From SAR202 cluster bacterium Io17-Chloro-G6 (GTDB lineage: Bacteria; Chloroflexota; Dehalococcoidia; UBA3495): a stretch of 64,000 nucleotides of DNA. Location: NCBI GenBank assembly GCA_002816585.1, contig MUCT01000003.1, positions 1-64,000 on the forward strand, read 5' to 3'. This document shows positions 21,062 through 23,160 of the stretch, one piece after another. Position 1 is the first letter of the stretch. Every line of letters begins with the position of its first letter. The notes below the pieces were generated by a model. That model saw only the letters and a list, made by a program, of their open reading frames with translations, did no database searches and was not told where the DNA came from. A program made the position numbers and the translations under genes.

Positions 21062-22546
21062 CTAAAGCCCCGTAATCTCTAACGTCGAGACCAACCCGGA
21101 GTCAATGTCGGCCACCCGGATTGCGTGATTGTTGGTGTCGGCAATGTACATCTTGCCATTGGCGAAGCTGATTCCGCTGGGCTCGGAGAACTGGGCTTGG
21201 TCCGCAGCCCCATCGATGTGGCCCGGTGAGCCGGTTCCCAAGACGGTGAAGGCGCTCCTCATGACCGGCAAAACCCGTTTGATCTTATGGTTATAGGTGT
21301 CGGTGACGTAGAGCACCCCATCGTAATGTGTGATTCCGATCGGGTGTTGCAGCCGAACGCGGTGGTCTGAGCCATCAACGTCACCGAAGATAAACAAGTC
21401 CAACCCCACGATCGTTCGTACGCTCCCCATAGGGTCGATGTCCGCCGAGCGCACGGAACTGGTCTCGCTATCAGCGAAGAACAATTTGACGCCATCAGTG
21501 GTGATACCGCAGGGCTGAGCCAACTCAGCCGTGCCCAATGGACCGTCGGTGAGGGACTCCCGCCCGTTGCCGGCGAAGGGCCTGGCCATCCCCGTATCCA
21601 AATCGAGAGACCATAGTTGGTGGATGCCGGCCATGGCGATGTAGATAACCCCATCGTGGTGTAACAGGTCGAATGGGGAGCAGAGTTCCATGGTCCGAGC
21701 GGGACGCCGGCCTTCTCTGGTGTGGCCCTGTTCACCGGTTCCCGCGATGGTCTCGACAGTGCCGGCGGCCAGGTCCACCTTGCGGATAGCGTGGTTCCCC
21801 GTATCAGCCACATAGAGGGTTTCGCCATCCAGCGCGACGCCCTGAGGGTGGTTGAAGGCGCAATCCGCGAAGCCGCCATCGGCCAGATCCTCATCCCCGC
21901 TGCCTATCACCTCTTTTACGGCTCCGCTCAGCGAGGAAATCACGATGCGGTTGTGATTGGTGTCGGCGATGAACAGGCGGTCTCCCGGACCATCGGCCAG
22001 CACTTTGCCTGGAAAGTTGAGTCCGGTGTCTTCAGTTTTCTGAAAAGTCGATGGGCGCGGTGTATGGTCCAAAATACCCTGGGCGTCGAACTCGGTCACC
22101 ATTTGGCTAATCAGCCCATCGAATGCCTCGAAGGTCATCTCTCCTTCGTGCTTACCGATGACATTGCCCAGAGGGTCGATGAACATCAGCGTGGGCCAAG
22201 CCCGGCAGGAGTATTGCTGCCACACCTGGAATTCGGAATCGTTGATCACTGGGTGTTCTAGCTGGTAGCGGCGGACGGCATTGTGCAGGTTGCCAGTGTC
22301 CTTCTCATTGGGGAACTTTGCCGAATGAACGCCGACCACGGCCAAATCCCTGGCGTACTTCTTTTCCAGTTTCCGCAACTGCGGAAATATATGGGCGCAG
22401 TTGATTCAACAGTAGGTCCAGAAGTCCAGTATCACGATCTTTCCTTTCAGGGCCTGCATTGTTGGTGGCAGGTCTGTATTGATCCACTCGAGGCCCTCGG
22501 GGAATTCGGGCGCGGCTAGCTTGCCGGCAAACGATTGGCTGCTCAT
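21062..22546 (-). CDS. Probable selenoprotein: thioredoxin-like/NHL-repeat protein with in-frame TGA at the redox site
   Basis: The ATG at 22546 opens [21 protein letters not shown] and reads through VILDFWTYC, then TGA at 22408-22406 (codon 47), then [17 protein letters not shown] and on to TAG at 21062, 494 aa in one frame. Thioredoxin-fold NHL proteins (including human NHLRC2) have FWTYCCINC here, so TGA replaces the first Cys of the CxxC pair, giving UxxC, the standard Cys/Sec exchange of redox selenoproteins. A perfect hairpin lies 25 nt after TGA (22370-22387). Residues about 20-150 are the thioredoxin domain; about 150-494 are NHL repeats forming a beta-propeller ([35 protein letters not shown]). 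A call starting at 22378 would miss the catalytic half. The alternative is a nonsense mutation; no sel genes are in the window. Confidence 0.8.
22370..22387 (-). promoter_or_regulatory. Candidate bacterial SECIS hairpin
   Basis: On the minus strand a perfect 7-bp stem (TTTCCGC/GCGGAAA) closes a four-base loop AGTT. The loop begins 25 nt after the in-frame TGA, within the 16-37 nt spacing known for bacterial SECIS elements, and has G in its first two positions as the consensus asks. It sits inside the coding sequence, as bacterial SECIS elements do. An overlapping alternative 8-bp stem begins 2 nt after TGA. Confidence 0.65.
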
Positions 22547-22635
22547 GACGCCTCCGGAATGTTCAACCGGCCGGCGGCCCAATCATGAGACTACCGGCCG
22601 GAAATACGGGTCTAACGGTAATGAGGTTGGTTCGA

Positions 22636-23160
22636 TTATGCGCCTGGAGCCGGCTCAATTGCCAGCGTTGCGTAGCGCATGAATATGGATCCCACGGGTG
22701 CGCCTAGAGGAGCGTTGGCCACCAGAACGGCGATTACGTGCTCCGTGCCTGGCACCGCCGGGTCTTCGATCAGAATGCGCTTGGGTGTGTTGTTGCCGGT
22801 TACCACCCACTTGTCCCGGTCGATGTTACCGTCGACGTAAACTTCGCCGTAGTTGTCCACATTGGTCTCGAACCAGACCCGGCCTCCGGCGACTTTCTCG
22901 CCCTTGACCTCGGCGGGAATGGTGATCTTGATGCGGTACCAGGCGAAAGTGAAACCAACGGAGCGGCGCTTCTGAATATCTGAGTCCTTCTCCCAGCCGG
23001 AATCATCGTAGTCGGCCAGCCGGGCCGGGCTATCCCCCATCTCGGCGACCAAGCCCTGATTGGACTCCCCGGGAACTATCCCAGGGGCGATCCTCCAGCC
23101 GGTGGTTTTAACGACCGCGAGGTCGGCGGGCACTTCCAGGTCCAATGCTACGCGGGGCAT
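22636..23160 (-). CDS. Galactose-binding-like (GH2 sugar-binding-domain-like) protein
   Basis: A 174-aa protein. The part from about residue 45 (DYDDSGWEKDSDIQKRR...FAWYRIKITIPAE...VWFETNVDNYGEVYVDGNID) follows the pattern of the beta-sandwich sugar-binding domain of GH2 enzymes, where a folded jelly-roll binds carbohydrate. No signal peptide and no catalytic domain are present, so it is a free-standing domain. TAGGAG precedes the ATG. It lies 25 bases downstream of a dienelactone hydrolase gene on the same strand. Function unknown. Confidence 0.6.
   Translation of the reverse strand: MPRVALDLEVPADLAVVKTTGWRIAPGIVPGESNQGLVAEMGDSPARLADYDDSGWEKDSDIQKRRSVGFTFAWYRIKITIPAEVKGEKVAGGRVWFETNVDNYGEVYVDGNIDRDKWVVTGNNTPKRILIEDPAVPGTEHVIAVLVANAPLGAPVGSIFMRYATLAIEPAPGA

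Follow-up and report, generated by a model that had tools for sequence, protein, structure and literature searches.

What does a stop codon do in the middle of an active site? The window, a 64,000-nt stretch from SAR202 cluster bacterium Io17-Chloro-G6, holds on its minus strand a frame that runs from an ATG at 22546 to a TAG at 21062. Translated with TGA as selenocysteine (Sec, U), it gives 494 residues whose sole TGA is U47, in the sequence DFWTYC-U-INCAH. The original prediction of a 494-codon frame from the ATG at 22546, with a single internal TGA at 22408-22406, was reproduced exactly by translation. The gene and its parts are as follows.

21062..22546, minus strand: gene of the predicted thioredoxin-NHL (Trx-NHL) selenoprotein, 494 codons with Sec at codon 47, homologous to SOQ1 and NHLRC2.
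22551..22555, minus strand: GGAGG, a Shine-Dalgarno-like site 4 nt before the ATG, read directly.
22409..22411, minus strand: Cys46 (TGT), directly before Sec; Cys in 136 of 153 TGA-form loci and Ala in the other 17.
22406..22408, minus strand: in-frame UGA (U47), first position of UxxC, from the frame translation and the codons of homologues.
22397..22399, minus strand: Cys50 (TGC), read in the sequence, the second (putatively resolving) Cys of U-I-N-C.
22112..22450, minus strand: thioredoxin-like domain, residues 33-145, from Pfam PF13905 and PF00578 (both above cut-off) and the AlphaFold model.
21074..22024, minus strand: NHL beta-propeller, residues 175-491, from PF01436 (above cut-off), alignment to 7djm/6g7w and Foldseek.

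The open reading frame obtained in the window with translation table 11 is shorter, 21062..22378, 438 aa from a TTG start, so that standard gene calling leaves out the CxxC site, just as had been foreseen. This amounts to a systematic annotation error: 8000 database proteins were scored and alignment starts examined in the best 120, of which none includes the residue aligned with U47, 76 beginning at L57, 34 at residue 51 and 10 between 48 and 70.

Both sides of the TGA bear the marks of purifying constraint. Against seven relatives, pS is 0.50-0.89 and pN 0.10-0.28 over codons 1-46, and pS 0.46-0.78 and pN 0.06-0.12 over codons 48-160; the codon-usage score before the TGA, 0.19, resembles the 0.22 of the remaining gene. 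Twelve frames in the window extend past a TGA by at least 25 codons, and on codon usage, the one measure by which the other 11 were judged, clearly gene-like sequence is seen in this gene's extension alone. A script selected 52 non-overlapping ORFs of at least 120 aa in the window, and 15 of them end in TGA, which is therefore an ordinary stop here, as the original prediction held.

To which family does the protein belong? A thioredoxin-like domain followed by an NHL propeller is the architecture of the NHLRC2/SOQ1 family. The best solved relative is SOQ1 (E 7e-128, residues 11-491), and human NHLRC2 is matched with E 2.5e-109 (residues 9-491), in both cases across the two domains. The CC(I/V)NC active-site motif of this family, as given in PMC6107167, is present only if the UGA encodes its second C (C-U-INC). 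In the SOQ1 alignment CCINC stands opposite the window's C-TGA-INC; the proposed placing of the TGA at the first Cys of CxxC thus agrees with both this alignment and the NHLRC2 motif. An AlphaFold model, made from 25 sequences with residue 47 set to Cys, has a mean pLDDT of 89.6 and a pTM of 0.87, and Foldseek gives it TM-scores of 0.91 to SOQ1 (7djk) and 0.89 to NHLRC2 (6gc1). PF08534 (Redoxin) scores 24.8 bits, below its cut-off of 26.6, and no NCBIfam model scores at or above its own cut-off for the window protein.

Is the TGA shared by relatives? A scan of GTDB genomes for the pattern W-T-(Y/F)-C-TGA-x-N-C gave at least 120 loci; 118 of the 120 matches listed are clear homologues with TGA at this codon, some of which end early at contig or locus ends. 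As the pattern demanded both the motif and TGA, the scan is uninformative on the frequency of Cys. The main carriers among the matches listed are Chloroflexota (SAR202, other Dehalococcoidia, Anaerolineae and others), Thermomicrobia, Rokubacteria and NC10/Methylomirabilota, with one or two records each, whose single-bin labels may be wrong, from Acidobacteria, Armatimonadetes, Actinomycetota, Rubrobacter, Planctomycetota, Nitrospirae and Bacillota. Cultured carriers include Thermosporothrix hazakensis (L090) and Thermomicrobium sp. (L065). In a gamma-proteobacterium (L033) and a 'PS1 clade' bin (L047), the pattern is fitted by the same short, non-homologous peptide frame.

A search of one class with a protein query, in which TGA was not demanded, found the family in 81 of 294 genomes: 35 with one TGA, 43 stop-free and 3 without the N-terminal part. 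The site is readable in 34 of the 35 TGA genomes (all but G246) and in 33 of the 43 stop-free ones, where it is TGC in all 33; 7 of the 34 class TGA loci are identical over 180 nt to pattern-scan loci. The phylum of the NC10 genome has the family in 15 of 95 genomes (12 TGA, 2 TGC, 1 without the N-terminal part). Seventeen TGA forms carry Ala, not Cys, before U, outside the reach of the pattern. Across the 200 readable loci the site codon is TGA in 165, at least 10 of which are the same gene reached twice, and TGC in 35, and nothing else. The alignment of homologues suggested as a check for Cys or Sec at this codon thus comes out in favour of the original prediction.

A candidate selenocysteine insertion element lies a short distance downstream.

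22370..22387, minus strand: predicted SECIS hairpin, 7 bp, 25 nt after the UGA, with arms 22387-22381 and 22376-22370, from bSECIS criteria and covariation.
22377..22380, minus strand: apical loop AGUU of the hairpin, with G then U from its second position; AGTT in 64 of 75 distinct 24-nt segments.
22376..22378, minus strand: TTG Leu codon in loop and stem of the hairpin, and start of the truncated 438-aa ORF; TTG in 129 of 136 TGA-form loci.

The hairpin, UUUCCGC-AGUU-GCGGAAA, occupies nt 22-39 when the U of UGA is nt 1, and spells the codons CCG CAG TTG CGG. The bacterial SECIS model described in PMC13188914 has a loop of 3-9 nt with G in its first two positions, a stem of 4-16 bp, a spacing of 16-37 nt and an MFE of at most -7.5. 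With these published bSECISearch criteria applied by script, the window hairpin (loop 4 nt, stem 7 bp, spacing 25 nt, -10.5 kcal/mol) lies within all four, as a SECIS prediction of the kind originally called for should. So do 124 of 135 distinct TGA forms, a count that leaves out the phylum loci L194-L208, versus 3 of 33 Cys forms and, after synonymous recoding of the TGA forms, 83 of 405 sequences. Among the 11 TGA forms that fall outside is L026, the nearest locus to the window gene (86% identity). In the 12 TGA forms of L194-L208, CCG CAG TTG CGG is found in 7 and is absent from 5 of NC10 type.

Choice of codon points the same way. Of 136 TGA loci, 7 of which repeat a gene already counted, 129 use TTG for the Leu at codon +10; among the other Leu codons of the same genes, over the following 150 codons, 180 of 1699 are TTG. 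Cys forms have Leu at +10 in 12 of 13, and TTG in 1 of those 12. The tests of fold, covariation and criteria use distinct segments. Over 75 of these, 87.4% of stem cells are paired, versus 35-67% when the partners are slid, and 48 cells carry double changes, versus 13.7 on average and at most 29 in 1000 shuffles, counts that sequence relatedness inflates; the exchanges seen are C-G to G-C, U-A to C-G and G-C to C-G. Partners slid by +1 also yield 35 double-change cells, but with 48% paired. Covariation was scored in a single register, though L040, L065, L095 and L106 fold one base shifted. In 68 of 96 TGA segments, versus 2 of 13 Cys segments, the fold is better than that of synonymous codons (p<=0.05). 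For the window sequence folded over 60 nt, another hairpin is lowest in energy (z -0.98) and the SECIS hairpin appears in the centroid only, and the Rfam SECIS models give no match to it. TGA forms of NC10 type, together with one labelled Planctomycetota, are without the CAG-TTG loop (L002, L050, L083, L103, L108, L113, L201, L203-L206); these may use a different SECIS hairpin.

Do the carriers also have the machinery to decode the codon? With three sets combined and six overlaps removed, SelB is found in 85 of the 90 TGA-form genomes other than the window's and tRNA-Sec in 74, presumed true tRNA-Sec scoring 63-80 bits and look-alikes at most 56. Three of the 90 (G008, G016 and G416) have neither, which draft assemblies may explain; G008 and G016 nonetheless carry a TGA-containing SelD. 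From the loci of the pattern scan, at least 120 in number, 50 were chosen, of which 49 are real and one, L047, served as a control for chance matches: SelB is present in 45 and tRNA-Sec in 40 of the 49 genomes, and both are absent from the control genome (G050). In the class set, TGA-form genomes have SelB in 35 of 35 and tRNA-Sec in 30 of 35, and Cys-form genomes have them in 33 and 36 of 43, so that machinery alone does not separate Sec from Cys forms. However, both components are missing in none of 35 TGA-form versus 7 of 43 Cys-form genomes (Fisher p 0.015), and SelB occurs in 35 of 35 TGA-form versus 174 of 259 other genomes of the class (Fisher 4e-6; class baseline 209 of 294). The phylum set, with SelB in 11 and tRNA-Sec in 10 of 12 TGA-form genomes (G416 without both), gives little contrast against a baseline for SelB of 83 of 95.

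SelA and SelD were sought in 16 genomes, namely near relatives of the window and large-contig assemblies (G001-G009, G014-G016, G018-G021). All 16 have a SelD gene interrupted by a single in-frame TGA, and SelA scored above cut-off in 11. Since SelD is already known as a selenoprotein (PMC13188914), its TGA indicates that these lineages use selenocysteine, and together with the Trx-NHL TGA gives at least two predicted selenoproteins in these Chloroflexota. In 12 genomes (G068, G114, G129, G142, G153, G163, G185, G196, G207, G225, G233, G240), all with Ala before Sec, one contig carries both the TGA-form gene and a tRNA-Sec gene, ~12-21 kb apart.

Could the TGA nonetheless be something other than a Sec codon? 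A pseudogene or sequencing error, with the TGA a true stop or a miscalled base in a Cys protein, would have to recur at the same codon in 118 of the 120 pattern loci listed and again in loci found without demanding TGA, within a frame under purifying selection on either side and next to a conserved SECIS; we consider this extremely improbable. Perhaps, then, the gene yields two products, with translation stopping at the UGA and restarting at TTG 22378 (ATG in relatives) to make a protein without the active site, and the TTG is conserved as a start? This TTG is indeed the start of the mechanical ORF and of 76 of the best 120 database proteins. However, direct reading showed no Shine-Dalgarno-like site before it, the start would fall within the thioredoxin fold, the stem bases flanking it covary, and of the 12 Cys forms that have this Leu, a single one encodes it by TTG, so a restart is hardly credible. 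Reassignment of UGA in this lineage to Trp, Gly or another residue would account for the open frame, and nothing further was found in its favour. It has to contend with TGA ending 15 of 52 window ORFs, with the sole gene-like extension past a TGA being this gene's, with the many family members that terminate at TGA and with Cys as the homologous residue, and its probability is practically nil. Pseudogene or error, reinitiation and code reassignment are all rejected on the evidence from conservation, SECIS, codons and stop usage.

A further possibility accepts Sec and questions its chemistry: the residue might bind metal or selenium, or serve in signalling, within the cleft. The Trx-like domain of NHLRC2, which PMC6107167 describes as without classical insulin reductase activity, would suit such a role; set against it are the UxxC in a thioredoxin fold and a first position that is only ever Sec or Cys, and we judge it unlikely. 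The in-frame stop at the active site is thus, on the sequence evidence, almost certainly read as selenocysteine, and the original proposal to that effect is supported by the Sec/Cys-only site, by the SECIS hairpin with its covariation and by the decoding machinery of other TGA-form genomes. We put at roughly 0.96 the probability of the main reading as a whole: a cytosolic two-domain Trx-like and NHL protein, related to NHLRC2 and SOQ1, in which UGA47 is read as Sec by means of SelB, tRNA-Sec and the SECIS and Sec47 is the putative nucleophile. The protein is most likely a cytosolic UxxC oxidoreductase.

How have the Sec and Cys forms exchanged? On a quick tree of 115 of the 165 usable rows (186 loci), with the active site masked and two long branches (L176 and L079) placed unsurely, Sec and Cys require 4 changes, at least 3 of them on well-supported branches, versus ~23 with shuffled labels. 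One Cys form, L130, is nested within a Sec group (support 92, enclosing branch 95). The assembly of its genome, G192, has neither SelB nor tRNA-Sec, though drafts can miss genes; this fits a replacement of Sec by Cys after loss of the machinery. The two forms also differ in build, as predicted by rule: Sec forms stay in the cytosol and stop at the end of the propeller, and most Cys forms of the same class are exported lipoproteins that carry a further domain at the C-terminus. By a simple hydrophobicity and motif rule, rather than a trained signal-peptide predictor, 20 of 33 class Cys forms have a hydrophobic stretch with a lipobox and 3 of 33 the hydrophobic stretch only, and such a stretch is seen in 3 of 153 TGA forms. 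Class Cys forms run on for at least 540 residues beyond the site in 25 of 33 cases, and 122 of the 128 TGA forms with a complete C-terminus end 420-480 residues beyond it. Gly precedes the active-site Cys in 27 of the 33. Most of the Cys forms concerned (L130, L138-L141, L145, L147, L149, L151-L154 and L156-L176) are predicted to be lipoproteins and to bear the additional C-terminal domain.

On the comparative evidence, UGA codon 47 is decoded as Sec by SelB and tRNA-Sec with the help of the hairpin 25 nt downstream, and Sec47 takes the place of the leading Cys of CxxC, which is C90 in human NHLRC2. From there we posit the following mechanism. A partner would sit in the interdomain cleft, with the Trx-like domain on one side and the propeller on the other, where the selenolate could attack one of its disulfides or oxidised thiols, after which Cys50 would resolve the mixed selenenylsulfide. 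Cys46 may assist, and is presumably not essential given the Ala found there in 17 of 153 TGA-form loci. In NHLRC2 this cleft contains CCINC and is where most of the conserved residues map, and the account in PMC6107167 includes an insulin assay in which the Trx-like domain showed no reductase activity. Classical thioredoxin activity is therefore not expected for the window protein either; by analogy, the enzyme is probably partner-specific and not a general-purpose thioredoxin.

On one flank of the window gene lie prfA and prmC, and on the other a 174-aa ORF, two dienelactone-hydrolase-like genes, a class-III aminotransferase and an MMPL gene.

22636..23160, minus strand: upstream ORF of 174 aa, without a match in the Pfam search, with a homologue on 21 fetched loci.

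Homologues of this ORF are 71-87% identical in the 14 shown, and its product is a possible partner of the Trx-NHL selenoprotein. Portions of the neighbour order recur in near relatives, for example L024, L026, L060 and L074; this recurrence and the tree place the window among SAR202-type Chloroflexota, and the gene order points to no particular function.

Has such a selenoprotein been described? Table 1 of an inventory from 2026, which covers 119 families and subfamilies of prokaryotic selenoproteins (PMC13188914), has no NHL or NHLRC2/SOQ1 entry, and full-text literature searches, judged by titles and abstract openings, brought up no description of a Sec-form NHLRC2/SOQ1 family; in the literature searched, the Sec form is apparently undescribed. 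The inventory's entry 'Redoxin family protein, PF08534, UxxC' and its generic thiol-disulfide entries, as far as their descriptions go, could overlap with it in part, and we infer that the 'Redoxin family' entry and GOS 'Prx-like 3' are one group. The family matters beyond bacteria: according to PMC6107167, NHLRC2 is essential in mammals and mutated in FINCA disease, and SOQ1, which acts in plant light harvesting, shares with it the conserved CCINC cleft, the chemistry of which is there unproven. A natural Sec version would indicate the catalytic residue and offer a more reactive form for substrate trapping. Chloroflexota (SAR202 and others), Methylomirabilota and Rokubacteria each gain a predicted selenoprotein, of which other groups show isolated records. 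With some reserve, we lean towards a wider interpretation, namely that these are a large, unlisted selenoprotein family and the bacterial counterparts of NHLRC2 and SOQ1, that Sec marks the C90 position as the attacking one, that the whole family, human and plant members included, are true redox enzymes, and that Sec or Cys tracks compartment and domain make-up.

How, then, does the window protein compare with known systems? Redoxin/Prx-like 3 selenoproteins (PF08534) share with it UxxC and a thioredoxin-like fold, and might include fragments of the Trx-NHL family; by their description, which names no NHL domain, they are set apart from the window protein, itself below the PF08534 cut-off. DipZ of M. 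tuberculosis is an exported or membrane protein, whose Trx-like domain (2hyx) matches residues 12-166 (E 3e-21) and has the motif SCINC; unlike the window protein it has Cys, and the match takes in no propeller. Human NHLRC2 (6gc1), 40% identical in structural alignment, shares the Trx-like domain, the six-bladed NHL propeller and CCINC at the same place, but has Cys rather than Sec and an additional C-terminal domain. The lumenal part of plant SOQ1 (7djj, 7djk), matched over residues 11-491 and the best of the fold matches at TM 0.91, likewise differs in having Cys, not Sec.
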